Part shown: positions 8,288 through 51,889 of the stretch, in pieces | How the letters are laid out: each line of letters begins with the position of its first letter | Position numbering within the stretch: position 1 is the first letter of the stretch | Source: Prevotella sp. | GTDB lineage: Bacteria > Bacteroidota > Bacteroidia > Bacteroidales > Bacteroidaceae | DNA: 52,538 nucleotides | NCBI GenBank assembly: GCA_017960525.1 | Contig: JAGCZA010000025.1 | Location: 1-52,538 of the forward strand | Direction of reading: 5' to 3' | Notes under the pieces: model-generated | Databases searched by the model: none | What the model was told of the DNA's origin: nothing | Seen by the model: the letters and a program-made list of their open reading frames with translations, nothing else | Program-made: the position numbers and the translations under genes

Positions 8288-9160
8288 ATGGCAAGAATCA
8301 TGGGGAAGTTCATCAATCCTTTTACTGACATTGGCTTCAAGATTATCTTTGGACAGGAGTTTTCTAAGCCGCGTCTGCTTGATTTCCTGAACGCGCTTCT
8401 TGTGGGCGAACGTATTATTACCGACCTGCGGTTTCTTGACAAACAGATGCCTGCAATATACGATGGCGACCGCTCGCCCATCTACGACATTCTCTGCGAG
8501 ACTGCCAGCGGTGAGAAGATCATCGTTGAGATGCAGAACCGGGAACACCCGAACTTCAAGGAGCGCATGCTCTATTATTCAGCTGAAGCTATTGTCCGTC
8601 AGGGGGAGAAGGGTATTGTATGGGGCTACGAAATTAAGGCTGTTTATATGGTGGCATTCACTAATTTCGTCCTTACAGGGTATGACGGCAGACTGCGTAT
8701 TGACGTGGGACTTGCCGACATGCAGAAGAACGAGCTGTTCACCGACAAGATGCGCCTGATATGCCTTCAGATGCCGTGCTTCACCAAGGAGGCGGAGGAG
8801 TGTGAGAATCATTTTGAGCGTTGGATATATATACTGAAGAATATGGATATACTTGACAGGATGCCGTGGGCTGCTCAGAACGCAGTATTCCAACGGCTGG
8901 CAGAAGTTGCCGAAGTAAGCAAGCTGACGAAGAAGGAGCGTATCGAGTACGACCAAGCCTTGAAGCGTTACCGCGACACTCTCAACGCCATTGCCGGTGC
9001 GGAGCAGAAAGGACGTGCTGAAGGACGTGCTGAAGGACGTGCTGAAGGACGTGCTGAAGAGGCTCTGAATATTGCCCGCAACCTGAAGAACATGAACCTT
9101 TCTATTGAGGACATCATGAAGGCTACCCGTCTTTCTGCCGAAGAGATAGAAAGACTTTGA
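8288..9160 (+). CDS. Rpn-family PD-(D/E)XK nuclease / putative transposase
   Basis: Start chosen at ATG 8288 (MARIMGKFINPFTDIGFKII), just after the promoter; a longer frame from 8198 would run through the promoter. FINPFTDIGFKIIFG and the catalytic segment SPIYDILCETASGEKIIVEMQ-type (Asp, then Glu-x-Gln) are hallmarks of the PDDEXK_2 family related to RpnA-E recombination-promoting nucleases. The C-terminus has four exact GRAE repeats encoded by a 12-bp tandem repeat at 9011-9058, then a helical tail (NMNLSIEDIMKATRLSAEEI). Some Rpn proteins act in phage defence. Length, about 290 aa, is normal for the family. Confidence 0.85.
   Translation: MARIMGKFINPFTDIGFKIIFGQEFSKPRLLDFLNALLVGERIITDLRFLDKQMPAIYDGDRSPIYDILCETASGEKIIVEMQNREHPNFKERMLYYSAEAIVRQGEKGIVWGYEIKAVYMVAFTNFVLTGYDGRLRIDVGLADMQKNELFTDKMRLICLQMPCFTKEAEECENHFERWIYILKNMDILDRMPWAAQNAVFQRLAEVAEVSKLTKKERIEYDQALKRYRDTLNAIAGAEQKGRAEGRAEGRAEGRAEEALNIARNLKNMNLSIEDIMKATRLSAEEIERL
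9011..9058 (+). repeat. 12-bp tandem repeat x4 inside the Rpn gene
   Basis: GGACGTGCTGAA is repeated four times without error, encoding GRAE x4. Copy-number changes would keep the frame and alter only the linker length before the C-terminal helix. Confidence 0.95.
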
Positions 9161-11681: not shown

Positions 11682-13556
11682 ATGCAAGACATCAGGAACA
11701 TCGCTATCATAGCGCACGTAGACCACGGTAAGACCACGCTCGTAGATAAAATGATGCTGGCCGGCAACCTGTTCCGCGAGGGGCAGAACCTCTCCAATCA
11801 GGTGCTCGACGCCAACGACCTGGAGCGTGAGCGCGGCATCACCATTCTTTCGAAAAACGTCAGCATCAACTGGAAGGGCACGAAAATCAACATCATCGAC
11901 ACACCGGGCCACTCCGACTTCGGCGGCGAGGTGGAGCGCGTGCTCAATATGGCTGACGGCTGTCTGCTGCTGGTCGATGCCTTTGAAGGTCCGATGCCCC
12001 AGACCCGCTTCGTGCTTCAGAAGGCTCTGCAAATAGGCCTGAAGCCCATTGTGGTGGTGAACAAGGTGGACAAGCCCAACTGCCGTCCCGAAGAGGTCTA
12101 TGAGATGGTGTTCGACCTGATGTTCTCGCTCAATGCCACCGAGGACCAACTGGATTTCCCCGTGGTCTATGGCTCGGCCAAGAATGGTTGGATGGGGCCT
12201 GACTACAACAAGCCCACCACCGACATCACCTATCTGCTCGACAAGATTGTGGAGGTGATTCCCGCCCCGCAGCAGATTGAGGGCACACCGCAGATGCTCA
12301 TCACCAGCCTCGACTTCTCAAGTTATACGGGACGAATCGCTGTGGGCCGCGTTCACCGTGGCCATCTGACCGACGGCCAGCAAGTGACCATCGCCCACCG
12401 CGACGGTTCGCAGGAGAAGACGAAAATCAAGGAACTGCACACCTTCGACGGTATGGGCCACCACCGCACCGACAGCGTGGACTGCGGTGACATCTGCGCC
12501 GTCATCGGCTTGGAGAAATTCGAGATTGGCGACACCATCTGCGACCTGGAGAACCCCGAGCCACTGCCGCCTATCGCCATCGACGAGCCGACCATGTCGA
12601 TGCTCTTCACCATCAACGACTCACCGTTCTTCGGCCGTGAGGGCAAGTTTGTCACCAGCCGTCACATCAACGACCGCCTGATGCGTGAGTTGGAAAAGAA
12701 CCTGGCCCTGCGTGTGGAGCAGTTTGAGGACTCTACCGACAAGTGGATTGTCTCTGGCCGTGGTGTGCTGCACCTGAGCGTGCTCATCGAGACCATGCGC
12801 CGCGAGGGCTACGAACTGCAAGTGGGGCAGCCGCAGGTGATATTCAAGTATGGAGGTGAGGGGCAAGAGGTGAGAGGTGAGAGGTCAGACTTGCAGCAAT
12901 CTCTCACCCCTCACCCCTCACCCCTCACCCCCCAAAAATATGAACCCATCGAGGAACTCACCATCAATGTGCCGGAGGAATTCGCCTCGAAGATGATTGA
13001 CATGGTGACGCGCCGCAAGGGCGACCTTATCTCGATGGAGAGCCAGGGAGACCGCACCAATATGGCTTTCGAGATTCCCTCGAGGGGCATTATCGGCCTG
13101 CGCACCAACATCCTCACAGCCAGTCAGGGCGAGGCCATCATGGCCCACCGCTTCAAGGAGTACCAGCCCTACAAGGGCGACATCGAAAGGCGCGTGAACG
13201 GCTCGATGATTGCGCTGGAGACGGGCACGGCCTACGCCTACGCCATTGACAAACTGCAGGACCGTGGCAAGTTCTTCATCGACCCGGGCGAGGAGGTTTA
13301 CTTCGGCCAGGTGGTTGGCGAGCACGTCCACGACAACGACTTGGTCATCAACGTCTGCAAGGCCAAGCAGCTGACCAATGTGCGTGCCTCTGGCAGCGAC
13401 GAGAAGGCCCGCGTCATCCCGAAGGTCATTATGTCGCTCGAAGAGTGTCTTGAGTATATCAAGGAAGACGAACTGGTGGAGGTCACGCCAAAGTCGATGC
13501 GCATGCGCAAGTCCATACTTGACCACGACCAGCGTAAGAAAGCCAGCAGGGCCTGA
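11682..13556 (+). CDS. typA: Ribosome-associated GTPase TypA/BipA with a 30-residue palindrome-encoded insert
   Basis: ATG 11682 starts [20 protein letters not shown] (G1 motif AHVDHGKT), then ERGITI (G2), [13 protein letters not shown] (G3) and NKVDKP (G4). The translation-factor beta barrel, EF-G III/V-like domains and the TypA-specific C-terminus ([33 protein letters not shown]) are complete. TypA assists ribosome assembly and stress growth. The protein is 624 aa. About 30 residues (after position 390, [23 protein letters not shown]) are foreign low-complexity sequence encoded by a 90-bp palindromic element; without it FKYEPIEEL would be continuous. Confidence 0.95.
12853..12942 (+). repeat. 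90-bp palindromic element inserted in frame in typA
   Basis: GA-rich direct motifs (GAGGTGAG, GAGGTGAGAG) in the left half face CTCACCCCTCACCCC in the right half around a short spacer. TATG occurs at both borders (12849-12852 and 12939-12942), consistent with a 4-bp target duplication. Net length of 90 bp is a multiple of three. Confidence 0.85.
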
Positions 13557-13566
13557 ACGTTTTCAA

Positions 13567-13654
13567 TTTAGAATTTAGAGTTAAGAATTAAGAGGTACTT
13601 TATAATCGCAGCGAAGCGAGAATACTTCTTACTTCTAAACTCTAAACTCTTACT
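13567..13654. repeat. AT-rich inverted repeat between convergent typA and esterase genes
   Basis: TTTAGAATTTAGAGTTAAG and its imperfect complement CTTCTAAACTCTAAACTCTT flank about 25 bp. It could serve as a bidirectional terminator, although its arms are only about 75-80% matched and it looks like an interspersed repeat family. Confidence 0.6.
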
Positions 13655-15338
13655 TCTTGAGGTATTTCGCCAGTTCTGAGCCATTCTGGCGCAGACCCTT
13701 GGCAAAACTCTGGGCGTTCATCTGGGCGCCCAGTTTTGATGCGTGGGTATGGTCTTTCTTGAAATACTTGCCGGCCTTTTCCTTGATGGCAGCCACCTTT
13801 TCCTTGGCTTTCTCCTTGTCGTCAGGCAGTTTGGAGGCAAACTTGCGGTCAAGGAAGTCGGCTGAAATGTTGTGCATATCTACGAACTCCACGCCGGTCT
13901 CCTGCACCACCTCGCGGTACCATTTGCCGTAGGAGCCGTCGCGGCGCTCAATCTTGCCGCCAGGCCACTCGTTGCGCGGCGTCAGGCTGACGAGAATGGG
14001 CGTGGCTCCCTTTTCGCGCACGTCGTCAATCATCTTCTTCAGATACCAGCCAAAAGAGTAAACCACCTCGTAGATGCCGTTGTCCAGATGGAAGACGTGC
14101 AGGGTGTCCTTCGTGCCGGGAATGACGCCACGCGCCTTCTGGTCGGTGATGGGGCAGATGTCGTTGTGGCCGAACTGGATGGTGACGAAATCGCCGGGCT
14201 GCAGCGAGTTGTAGACCTTGTCCCACAGCCCCTCGCGGACGAATGAGCGCGTGCTGCGTCCGGCACGTGCGGCATTGACAAGCGTAATCTTCGACTCATC
14301 GAAAATGGTTTGAGCCTGCGAGGCCCAGCCCCACATACCGTCGTCCTCCTTGTCGGCGTTCTTTACCGTCGAGTCGCCCGTGAAGAAGACCACAGGCTTG
14401 CCGCCGGTACGGTCTGCTTGATAGACAGGACATTCGACGTTGGCCATTTTCTCCTTCAGGGGCTTCAACTGCGGGTTGTGGCTCTCCCAGATGCCCTTGG
14501 CGGCACAATAGGCGTTCAGTTCGGCTCCGAACTTCGAGGTGTGGATCTTGTCGCCCAGGAAGTGGTAGTGCTGCTTCCAGGAACTGTAGGAATCGAGCAC
14601 ACTGCCCGACAGTTCGTTCAAGTCGACGAATGGCACGCCCTCGATGGCGGCTACGTATGCGGCCCATTCCGTTTGCGGCTTACGGACAATCTTGCCCGTC
14701 TTCTCGTCGCGGGCGTCGCGGGGCGTCAGCGACATCAGGATGGGGTTGGCGCCCTTGGCCCGAATCTCGCTGATGTAATGGCGCAGATAAGTGCCGTAAC
14801 TGTAGACGGTGTCCTGGCGCTGCGTGCGCTGGTTGAAGCCTATGTAGCACGTGTCAGGGTTCACGCCCGGGATGACGGCACGGGCGCGTTTCTGGTCGAA
14901 GAACTCGCCGTTGTCGTTGTGGCCGATAGAGACGATGACCCAGTCGCCGGGCTTCAGGGCCTGGCGCACGGCGGGCCACAGGTCGGTGTAGAACGTGCGG
15001 GTGGACATGCCGCCCAAACCCTGGTTCTCCACAGTGATTTGCTTTTCGTCGAAGTATTTGTTGGCATAGTAGCCCCAGCCCCACTGTCCGTTGGAGCCGT
15101 TGCCCTTGGTGCCGTTGCGCATGGTCGAGTTGCCGATGAGGAAGAGCACAGGGTTCTGACCCTTTCGGGTGCTGCCCGGCGCGGGGCGGGATGTGAGTGC
15201 AAGGGCAATGGAGTCGGGCGTATTGTCCACCACTTTGTTGACGTCCTCGATGGGGTCGGGCAGATTGTCGAAGTCCTGGGCCAGCACGGGTGTGAGTGCC
15301 ATGCCTGTGAGTGCAAGTGCTGTAAGCAGTCTTTTCAT
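13650..15338 (-). CDS. Secreted tandem SGNH (CE12-like) rhamnogalacturonan acetylesterase
   Basis: A signal peptide (MKRLLTALALTGMALTPVLAQ) is followed by two SGNH-hydrolase domains. Domain 1 has the catalytic serine in LIGNSTMRNG, SIGHND (block III) and HTSKFGA near its end. Domain 2 repeats this with FTGDSTVKNAD, QFGHNDICP and HTHASKLGA. CE12 enzymes remove acetyl groups from rhamnogalacturonan or xylan. Both domains keep Ser, Asn and His. It ends facing typA across a hairpin. The GSCFA gene lies just upstream on the same strand, 32 bp away. Confidence 0.85.
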   Translation of the reverse strand: MKRLLTALALTGMALTPVLAQDFDNLPDPIEDVNKVVDNTPDSIALALTSRPAPGSTRKGQNPVLFLIGNSTMRNGTKGNGSNGQWGWGYYANKYFDEKQITVENQGLGGMSTRTFYTDLWPAVRQALKPGDWVIVSIGHNDNGEFFDQKRARAVIPGVNPDTCYIGFNQRTQRQDTVYSYGTYLRHYISEIRAKGANPILMSLTPRDARDEKTGKIVRKPQTEWAAYVAAIEGVPFVDLNELSGSVLDSYSSWKQHYHFLGDKIHTSKFGAELNAYCAAKGIWESHNPQLKPLKEKMANVECPVYQADRTGGKPVVFFTGDSTVKNADKEDDGMWGWASQAQTIFDESKITLVNAARAGRSTRSFVREGLWDKVYNSLQPGDFVTIQFGHNDICPITDQKARGVIPGTKDTLHVFHLDNGIYEVVYSFGWYLKKMIDDVREKGATPILVSLTPRNEWPGGKIERRDGSYGKWYREVVQETGVEFVDMHNISADFLDRKFASKLPDDKEKAKEKVAAIKEKAGKYFKKDHTHASKLGAQMNAQSFAKGLRQNGSELAKYLKK

Positions 15339-27140: not shown

Positions 27141-27274
27141 AAGGGAGTGAAAGGGGAGTGAAGGGGGAGTGAAAGGGAAGTGAAGGGGACGATAGTTCAA
27201 ATGCATGGACTATTGTCACTTTCACTCCCGCCGACGACAGTCGGCTCACTCCCCTTTCACTCCTTGTCACTCCT
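27141..27274. repeat. G-rich/C-rich inverted repeat between secreted genes
   Basis: Several repeats of GGGAGTGAA on the left (27144-27188) face TCACTCCC/TTCACTCC on the right (27220-27274), around GACGATAGTTCAAATGCATG. The palindrome lies between the 27097 and 27292 genes. Confidence 0.75.
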
Positions 27275-27291
27275 AACATTCAGAAATTTAA

Positions 27292-38798: not shown

Positions 38799-38875
38799 TT
38801 CTGGTACCTATTGCCTAAATTGTGCGCAGCCATTCCCCTCCCATCAAGGGGAGGGGCAGGGGTGGGGTCTGTAAT
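38785..38875 (+). repeat. 91-bp repeat with hairpin and G-quadruplex motif, copy 1
   Basis: GGGTCAGTCGATAATT begins a segment that recurs at 51890-51979. It contains the hairpin CCCCTCCC...GGGGAGGGG, then GGGGAGGGGCAGGGGTGGGG (38848-38867), four runs of four G. It starts inside the AGCS symporter gene. Confidence 0.88.
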
Positions 38876-38900
38876 TTCTTGTCAGCCAAAAAGATACTGA

Positions 38901-38936
38901 CCCCACCCCCAACCCCTCCCCTTCAGGGGCGGGGAG
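38901..38936 (-). repeat. Inverted partner of the hairpin/G-run repeat
   Basis: Read on the minus strand it shows a hairpin (CCCCGCCCCTGAAGGGG) and then G-runs GGGGAGGGGTTGGGGGTGGGG-type at 38901-38921. It faces copy 1 across about 30 bp. Confidence 0.8.
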
Positions 38937-38976
38937 CTGTTGCGCCGTGATGCACCGAAGGAAACGACTGACCCAA

Positions 38977-39039
38977 AGTTTGGACGAACCAAACTATGAG
39001 TTTGCTCCGTCCAAACTCCCAGTTTGGTTCGTCCAAACT
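38977..39039. repeat. Inverted repeat pair upstream of the GH115 gene
   Basis: AGTTTGGACGAACCAAACT (38977-38995) is exactly complementary to AGTTTGGTTCGTCCAAACT (39021-39039), with further TTTG/CAAA partial copies between them. Each arm is also partly self-complementary. Confidence 0.85.
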
Positions 39040-39174
39040 TTTCCTTTCTTTTCAGAGGCTTCGGCTTTTGGTTGTTTCTGCCCGTTTGGTCGCTTTTTTT
39101 GAACTATTTGAAACGTGGGCAAAAGCCATTGTCGCCAATATCGGCTATTTTTGCAGAAAAATACCGATATTGAT

Positions 39175-47549: not shown

Positions 47550-47585
47550 CCTCCATTCATCTGTTATACCCTGCAAAATTACAAC

Positions 47586-47629
47586 TTTTATGCGAACAAA
47601 CCAAAATTTTTTGGTTTGTTCGCATAAAA
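47586..47629. promoter_or_regulatory. 44-bp palindrome in a symmetric divergent promoter
   Basis: TTTTATGCGAACAAACCAAA and its exact complement (21-bp arms, 2-bp centre) lie between divergent genes. The right arm's TTTG sits upstream of TAACTTTG (plus), and the left arm's mirrored TTTG upstream of TAATTTTG (minus). It may be both -33 element and operator for both directions. Confidence 0.7.
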
Positions 47630-47684
47630 ACATTAACTTTGCAGCCAACTTTTTGAATACGACGCAAACAATATAGAAGCAACT

Positions 47685-49121: not shown

Positions 49122-49148
49122 TACACATCTTTATATATAATAGGGATT

Positions 49149-50510
49149 ATGAAGAAAAAAAGCAGCCTGAAAAGCACCATCGCGGTGTCGCTGACAAACT
49201 ATCTGGACGCTGGGGCCATCGTGGCGGGTGCCAGCGGCCTCACCTTGTGGAAAGACTATCTCGGACTGACCGAGGGGCACCTGGGCTGGCTCAATGCCAT
49301 CAGCGCCAACTGCCTTGGCGCAGCCATCGGCGCCATCATCGGCGGATTCCTGGCCGACAAATACGGGCGCAAAGCCATCTATACCTACAATATGCTGGTC
49401 TATATGGCGGGCGTGCTCTGCATCCTGCTGGCAACCAGTTTCGTGCAATTGCTGCTGGGATTCCTCATTACGGGCATCAGCGTCGGCGTGGGCGTGCCTG
49501 CCTCGTGGACGTACATCAGCGAAAGCAGCGAGGTGAAGAACCGTGGGCGCAATATCGGCATCTCGCAAATGGCGTGGGGCATCGGGCCGACGGTCATACT
49601 CATCCTCGGCACGCTCCTGGCTCCGCCCACTAGTGGTGCGGGCAGCGAGGGCTGGCTGTTCCCCCTGGTGCAGACGGTGGCGGCGGTCTTTGGCGTGACC
49701 GAAGGCGGCGCCCTCAACGTGTTCAGTTCGCGCATTGTCTTCGTCTCCCTCTTCGTTGTGGCACTCATCGCGTGGCTGTTGCAGCGGCAATTGGACGAGT
49801 CGAAAGAGTGGGAAAAGCTGAAATTAGAAATGAAAAATGAAAAATATGATGACTTTAACGATGGTAATCGTATTTCTCATTTCTCATTTTTCATTTCCAA
49901 GTTTGCAAAGACATTGCTCTTCTTGGCTGGTATGTACCTCACTTGGAACCTGGTGGCCTCGGTGATGGGCTTCTTCCAGCAGCACATCTACGAGACGGCG
50001 GGCGGACTTTCCAATGCCGCCGCCAACCTGCTGTCCGTCGGCCAATGGCTGGGCATCATCGCCACCACGTTTGTCTTCTCGATGATTGTCGACAAGGTCA
50101 ACCAGCGGTGGCTCTACTTCGTTGGCGTCAGTTTCGCCGTCCTTGCCTGGGCGATGGTGCTCACCGTGGGCATCACCAGTATGGCCGGACTGCTGCTGTT
50201 CACGCTGTTATGGGCTTTACAGGCGGGCATCTCCGTGCAGTCGTTCTACGCGCTGTGGGCCAGCGAACTCTTCCCCGCCCGCTATCGTGCCGCCGCCCAG
50301 GGCATCATGTTCTTCATCGTGCGCGGCCTGAGCGCGGCCTGGGGCCTCGGCTTCGTCTACATCTACGGCGAGCAGGGTGAGGGCTTCACCCGTGCCGCCT
50401 GGGTTATGCTCGCACTTCTCGTCATCTCGCTCGTCATCGGCACCGTCGGAGCGCCGAACACCCGAGGGAAATCATTGGAACAAATAACCCGTGAAAGATA
50501 CGGTTCTTAG
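49149..50510 (+). CDS. MFS sugar-type transporter with palindrome-encoded insert in the central loop
   Basis: About 12 membrane segments with the MFS sugar-porter motif GGFLADKYGRKAIY after TM2 and SELFPARYRAAAQG near TM10-11. The substrate is unknown; neighbours suggest a sugar acid or sialic-acid-like monomer. In the central cytoplasmic loop, between TM6 and TM7 (after about residue 223), roughly 25 residues (LEMKNEKYDDFNDGNRISH...) are encoded by a palindrome. The stop TAG shares its G with the repeat at 50510. Confidence 0.85.
   Translation: MKKKSSLKSTIAVSLTNYLDAGAIVAGASGLTLWKDYLGLTEGHLGWLNAISANCLGAAIGAIIGGFLADKYGRKAIYTYNMLVYMAGVLCILLATSFVQLLLGFLITGISVGVGVPASWTYISESSEVKNRGRNIGISQMAWGIGPTVILILGTLLAPPTSGAGSEGWLFPLVQTVAAVFGVTEGGALNVFSSRIVFVSLFVVALIAWLLQRQLDESKEWEKLKLEMKNEKYDDFNDGNRISHFSFFISKFAKTLLFLAGMYLTWNLVASVMGFFQQHIYETAGGLSNAAANLLSVGQWLGIIATTFVFSMIVDKVNQRWLYFVGVSFAVLAWAMVLTVGITSMAGLLLFTLLWALQAGISVQSFYALWASELFPARYRAAAQGIMFFIVRGLSAAWGLGFVYIYGEQGEGFTRAAWVMLALLVISLVIGTVGAPNTRGKSLEQITRERYGS
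49826..49897. repeat. AT-rich palindrome inside the MFS gene
   Basis: GAAATGAAAAATGAAAAAT (49827-49845) and ATTTCTCATTTTTCATTTC (49879-49897) are complementary with one mismatch, separated by 33 bp. The reading frame stays open through it. Confidence 0.85.
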
Positions 50511-51757: not shown

Positions 51758-51789
51758 GCGTTCAAATAGGCCAGTTGGCGCACCGTTTC

Positions 51790-51879
51790 GGTTTGTAGCG
51801 GGCGGGGAAAACATTAGCAGCGCCCGCTGCTGATGTCCGCAGCGGGCGCTGCTAATGTTTGCAGCGCCCGCTACAAACC
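51790..51879. repeat. Large double hairpin built from GCAGCGCCCGCT units
   Basis: Outer arms GGTTTGTAGCGGGCG (51790-51804) and CGCCCGCTACAAACC (51865-51879) enclose an inner palindrome of about 22 bp per arm (AAACATTAGCAGCGCCCGCT ... and its complement, 51809-51860). This is a very stable structure in an intergenic space. Confidence 0.9.
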
Positions 51880-51889
51880 AAAATTTATA

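Follow-up and report, generated by a model that had tools for sequence, protein, structure and literature searches.

The typA gene of a rumen Prevotella sp. carries, in place of the four-codon EIDG loop of its relatives, a palindromic insert that is probably (at odds of about 60%) a copy of a dispersed, non-autonomous, hairpin-forming heptamer repeat, the translation of which would add ~28 residues to the protein; numerous families of such repeats would have spread in the lineage and would persist in permissive loops of proteins. The DNA analyzed, referred to here as the window, is a stretch of 52,538 nucleotides, a single contig of a draft genome of 146 contigs.

Anatomy and Folding of the typA Insert

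The features of the locus are as follows:
11682..13556, + strand: typA/bipA, a translational GTPase of 624 aa, identified from its translation, which matches the BipA structures 4zcm, 5a9v, and 4zci
12849..12932, + strand: 28-codon insert at the site of the relatives' 4-codon EIDG loop
12852..12883, + strand: left G-rich arm of GGTGAGA heptamers
12884..12900, + strand: hairpin loop
12901..12932, + strand: right C-rich arm of CTCACCC heptamers, read as 11 residues
12939..12942, + strand: right TATG, i.e., TAT-GAA (Tyr-Glu), at the ancestral codon position KC-E

The arms of the insert (12852-12883 and 12901-12932) are 84% complementary, and both are tandem 7-nt arrays (GGTGAGA and TCTCACC). None of 200 shuffles equaled the 7-nt periodicity (z 7.2) or folded as well as the hairpin, taken either as DNA (z -5.19) or as RNA (z -6.53), showing that the palindrome which the original prediction placed between two copies of TATG is real. 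The TATG copies themselves are present at 12849-12852 and 12939-12942. The open reading frame continues through the palindrome without a stop, and the two in-frame TGA positions of the G-rich side read CAA and TCA, the latter lying just outside the left arm (12884 onward). A scan of the window against Rfam at the gathering score gave one tRNA and no other match.

Replacement of the EIDG Loop

At the insert site, the TypA proteins of relatives read K-EIDG-xKC-EP, and the window reads K-[28 codons]-QKY. As the QKY of the window pairs with the QKC of the relatives, the foreign stretch corresponds to 12849-12932, and 28 codons stand in place of 4. Comparison with the BipA structure 5a9v placed 28 residues of the window protein P0001 (404-431) against 4 residues of the chain (391-394), and the length of the protein is 624 aa as against 598-603 aa in most of the insert-free relatives. 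The event at typA is hence a loop replacement and not a clean insertion. The earlier count of exactly 30 added codons was right in that the stretch is in frame and stop-free, but 28 codons replaced 4, a net gain of 24. Similarly, FKYEPIEEL is indeed left when the element and one TATG are excised, but it is not the expected sequence, as the relatives read KEIDGxKCEP.

The proposal that TATG is a target duplication was ruled out by comparison with empty and differently filled sites. In the sister locus L141 (98% TypA identity, tree support of 1.0), the site is empty and TATG is absent, and three other inserts (L065, L067, and L146) have the right end TAT-GAA as in the window with no TATG on the left.

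Inserts in the TypA Loop of Relatives

The site was read in 219 TypA loci, comprising the best 80 of one similarity search and further loci that included 80 additional places from the genus, a sampling that favours close relatives. A TypA match was obtained in 369 of 398 genus genomes, most of those beyond the sample not being read, and some genomes are doubly represented (six identical pairs among 140 TypA sequences). The nearest named typA relatives come from Prevotella and Prevotellaceae, and many of these genomes are rumen MAGs. The left motif was found in 213 of the 219 loci and was missing in 6. It is separated from E-P by 8 codons (K-EIDG-xKC and variants) in 193 of the 213 and by 14-43 codons, representing inserts, in the other 20.

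The 20 inserts correspond to 17 distinct sequences from several unrelated families, which include the GGTGAGA palindrome, CCCCGAGGGG-type palindromes in several versions, GGAGAAT and GGAAAAT heptamer palindromes, GAGAAAT and GCAATTA-like heptamers, and TCCGGA-rich and other stretches. The reading frame is kept in all 20, the 17 distinct sequences are free of stops, and no frame-shifted site (left motif without the right one) was observed among the 213 loci. Folding beyond that of shuffled sequences (at most 2 of 200 as good) was seen in 9 of the 17 distinct inserts and 7-nt periodicity at the same cut-off in 5. A hairpin, a 7-nt period, or both are present in 12, with none of 17 control flanks passing. 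Since the remaining 5 have neither, some of the variation in this loop may have arisen in a different way. Parsimony on a TypA tree of 134 tips required 14 changes against a shuffled mean of 17.1, with 6 of 500 shuffles as low, which indicates that the inserts are scattered and slightly clustered. The alignment of close relatives suggested in the original prediction thus gave an empty site in the nearest relative, and the 30 residues are not shared by the relatives; the prediction even understated the case, as in other species this TypA loop is occupied by different repeats.

Recent transfer at the same site between two species was considered for the insert of L033 and L253 (97/97 identical) and rejected, as flanking windows reach up to 95/97 and another identical run extends over 84 nt. 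The TypA of genome G005 (L044) has a loop of 23 codons instead of 8 at the same site, with neither a palindrome nor a 7-nt period; it is perhaps an old, decayed insert.

Copies in the Genome and Hairpin Architecture

The pattern GGTGRGRGGTGRG gave 49 matches in the own genome, which were grouped by reading into 17 places, and the reversed pattern, used as control, gave 0; the search for further copies called for in the original prediction was thus positive. By reading, 13 of the 17 places lie in frame inside ORFs, 1 lies at the 3' end of a histidine-kinase-like ORF (L016), and 3 are intergenic (L005, L012, and L019). For 10 of the 13 genic places, matches were found on both sides of the insert in the same frame or spanning it, TypA through a structure sequence and nine through Pfam; L020, L030, and L356 are based on long open frames alone. 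The nine hosts (names other than the Pfam names being assigned by reading) are an SBD_N/NBD_C protein, a radical SAM/SPASM enzyme, B12-dependent methionine synthase, a CobT-like phosphoribosyltransferase, a SufS-like aminotransferase class V, GH43, RlmN, GH97, and CarA. Weaker copies were detected by BLAST in UvrB, an ABC-F-like protein, the exonuclease VII large subunit, an M16 peptidase, and an AcrB-type transporter.

The dispersed hairpins share one architecture. Eight full palindromes, from the window and seven from relatives, could be aligned with arms of 31 bp and loops of 14-25 nt, and 87.7% of the pair cells were paired in register as compared to 44-67% when the arms were slid. Column 14, in the altered heptamer, was unpaired most often (5/8), followed by columns 10, 13, and 17 (4/8 each). 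Covariation in the stems of these eight palindromes was seen at 3 pairs and did not exceed that of shuffles (275/500). Heptamer-armed hairpins numbered 26 in the loci examined, 17 of them spanned by ORFs, a share that is biased because loci were chosen around genes. L302 and L311, located in two genes of one genome, have near-identical loops, with much of the loop sequence in common. A GATTAC-like sequence was also noticed in the hairpin loops of different heptamer families (L293, L294, L303, L304, L325, and L330).

Strand Bias and Probable Translation

A 7-nt array has the same reading in all three frames. The C-rich strand is stop-free (SPLTSHL), and on the G-rich strand a TGA comes up once per 21 nt whichever frame is read. 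All 12 single-arm genic places have the C-rich strand in the sense orientation, for which the chance on random strands is 1 in 4096, with the reservation that 3 of the 12 are known from open frames only, which favours C-rich sense. The G-rich-sense set comprised 13 ORFs from this genome and relatives, including a few single chance heptamers. TGA was retained in 0 of 35 in-phase heptamers of this set, a value partly forced because open frames were chosen, versus 62 of 69 off-phase ones. CAA was the replacement in 11 of the 35 in-phase heptamers versus 1 of 176 in the C-rich-sense copies. The restriction of the changes to in-phase heptamers, together with their being often identical (CAA), supports translation, and the sequence evidence strongly implies that the inserted residues are translated.

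The recurrent CAA hints that an already open 21-nt unit may be what gets copied; it could alternatively reflect shared descent of a few arrays, above all that of L302. A bolder reading, put forward tentatively, would have the repeat adapted to proteins, with an open 21-nt EVRGERQ unit (two GGTGAGA heptamers and one whose in-frame TGA is replaced by CAA or a different sense codon) spreading between genes by copying, translated loops as a main habitat, and several families in competition over the same housekeeping-protein loops.

Different Repeats in the Same Loops of Other Proteins

Recurrent takeover of a loop by different repeats was also observed in other proteins. ArgS, GcpE, SufS, and CarA genes were compared in six genomes, with repeats assigned by reading. 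The argS loop preceding KEIELIQKM holds a GGTGAGA palindrome in G398, a CCCCCGAGGGGG palindrome in G395, a GAAGAAT palindrome in G359, 9-nt repeats in G203, and a short other sequence in G000 and G328. Repeats of two kinds occur in gcpE and of three kinds in sufS, each in 4 of 6 genomes, and carA has different heptamers in 2 of 5, the sixth genome being without a match. The SufS arrays of sister genomes are 11 and 25 residues long. Among 21 additional near-complete genomes, the argS loop was by reading ordinary in 17 and short in 4, and clear repeats were present in two of the short ones, G281 (CTCACCC-type) and G182 (9-nt units). This loop of argS is thus inherently variable, and its takeover is concentrated in the part of the genus to which the window belongs.

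With unrelated repeats occupying one loop in different species, nature has in effect run a replicated experiment in the housekeeping genes of gut Prevotella, bearing on the conversion of selfish DNA into protein sequence and on which loops of TypA, ArgS, GcpE, SufS, and CarA tolerate it. The findings suggest that selfish DNA keeps reshaping housekeeping proteins, and an insertion confined to one lineage in such a protein may represent parasitic DNA and not adaptation.

Comparison With Known Repeats

The most familiar protein-coding palindromes are those of Rickettsia, for which genome decay offers a ready explanation. The Rickettsia palindromic elements (RPEs), as described in the available part of the source, lie in frame within unrelated conserved genes and are tolerated by the protein (PMC10969869). 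The original prediction, a mobile RPE-like palindrome tolerated within the frame of a conserved GTPase gene, is borne out in that a dispersed palindromic element is supported. A palindrome in frame inside unrelated genes is common to both, as far as the RPE source is available; the Prevotella repeats differ in having heptamer-built arms, in occurring in Bacteroidota, in the several unrelated families per site, and in the replacement of the loop at typA. Intragenic REPs of the GTAG and CGTC families are, in the accessible text, short ORF hairpins that mostly encode 20-30 residues as dimers or groups, and the presence of distinct REPs at nearly the same recB position in two species of Xanthomonas provides a precedent for recurrence (PMC3733652). 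Neither tetramer is found in 12849-12942 of the + strand. REPs are, in the text available, mostly intergenic, whereas the Prevotella repeat is genic by reading at 13 of 17 places and is absent near the four Y1_Tnp loci examined. By analogy, the Prevotella repeats appear to work like RPEs and intragenic REPs; they are assigned to neither group, the REP tag being absent and the likeness to RPEs being one of mode.

The G-rich heptamers of Xanthomonas and Nostoc and the TAACTGA repeats are 7-nt tandem units with a patchy distribution between species, and TAACTGA arrays are present in five Bacteroidetes, according to the portions available (PMC4692102, PMC4679880). The 7-nt period is common to these bacterial repeats and the Prevotella insert, but the known arrays are mainly intergenic in those accounts, unlike the in-frame palindromes in conserved genes described here. 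Coxiella QMITEs are small mobile palindromic repeats that lengthen some proteins (PMC5896051); in the accessible text they mostly change gene ends and heptamer arms are not described, whereas the Prevotella inserts are heptamer-armed. In Nematomorpha mitochondria, inverted repeats are gained and lost in translated genes (PMC6649704); both arms there encode conserved gene residues, in the part available, in contrast to the foreign dispersed repeat of Prevotella. A literature search, with subscription papers mostly beyond reach, found no report of coding palindromes in Prevotella or other Bacteroidota.

Proposed Mechanism and Alternatives

The loss of target codons, the ragged ends, and the absence of a target duplication make template switching or repair-associated copying the most likely way in which a copy would be written into a new site. 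The length of the array may then drift by slippage (compare the SufS arrays of sister genomes). Copies that shift the frame or bear stops would be purged, in keeping with the observed pattern, in which the surviving copies are either C-rich sense or G-rich sense with every in-frame TGA altered. The protein with its enlarged loop would presumably still work. With many repeat families surviving at sites where their copies fall in frame in permissive loops, the same loops would be taken over repeatedly. The data are explicable without any function, and none is claimed.

Movement in trans of a MITE- or REP-like element by a transposase (e.g., RAYT/Y1), with target duplication, is an unlikely alternative that draws, as the preferred reading also does, on the palindromic and dispersed nature of the element and on its patchy copy number. 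A 16-mer was found in 42 of 120 genus genomes, the own included, at up to 40 copies, as compared to 13 of 120 for the reversed control 16-mer, which is itself a heptamer repeat; the nearest relative had 121 heptamer matches, as against 0-57 in each of ten others. Y1_Tnp domains, the sole transposase family searched, were matched in 7 of 10 genomes (6 above the cut-off), the own genome among them. Yet the heptamers were absent at the four Y1_Tnp loci examined (L288-L291), on which ground a RAYT origin was rejected, the ends and arm lengths vary between copies, and typA lost its target codons with no duplication. Carriage by phages or plasmids was likewise rejected, with 0 matches in phages and one weak match, of 41% query coverage, in plasmids. 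Equally improbable is the absence of any movement, in which case slippage and intra-hairpin template switching would build heptamer arrays and quasi-palindromes on site in permissive loops. Loops variable by nature, as in ArgS, the many heptamer types at one site, and the unequal SufS arrays of sisters would fit such local generation, but it does not account for the recurrence of one heptamer and one hairpin architecture in unrelated genes of the lineage or for L302 and L311, which lie in two genes of a single genome and have nearly identical loops.

That the insert escapes translation, through ribosome bypass as in the mobile bypassing elements of Magnusiomyces mitochondria or through removal from the mRNA, is very improbable. 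A stable hairpin between matching TAT codons is present in the window and in L033, but most other inserts lack matching end codons, and a bypassed stretch would need neither the frame kept in 20/20 inserts, nor the freedom from stops of the 17/17 distinct ones, nor the alteration of in-frame TGA positions. An assembly artefact, conceivable for a 146-contig draft whose named typA relatives are mostly MAGs, can be given almost no weight, as the in-frame inserts occur at one codon position in many assemblies and argS repeats are also found in G281, a genome of 2 contigs, and in G182. The copying of a dispersed heptamer repeat into the loop is preferred.

Other Repeats in the Window

Two further heptamer-armed hairpins were observed in the window:
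49819..49898, + strand: another heptamer palindrome kept in frame, of a different family (GAAAAAT type), midway along the ORF of an MFS-type transporter (49122-50507)
13565..13655, no strand assigned: third heptamer-armed hairpin, with no ORF across it, between typA and a convergent gene

Repeats of other kinds were also noted. A palindrome of 11-nt GGGAGTGAAAG units lies at 27143-27275 in the intergenic region of two minus-strand genes, and a long C-rich/G-rich palindrome outside large ORFs (38824-38945) resembles the CCCC-type TypA inserts of relatives. Long inverted repeats with short loops and arms 86-93% complementary are located at 38975-39041, 47571-47644, and 51786-51883. At 9009-9059, a 12-nt unit is repeated 4.2 times with zero mismatches, in frame in an ORF (KGRAEGRAEGRAE).
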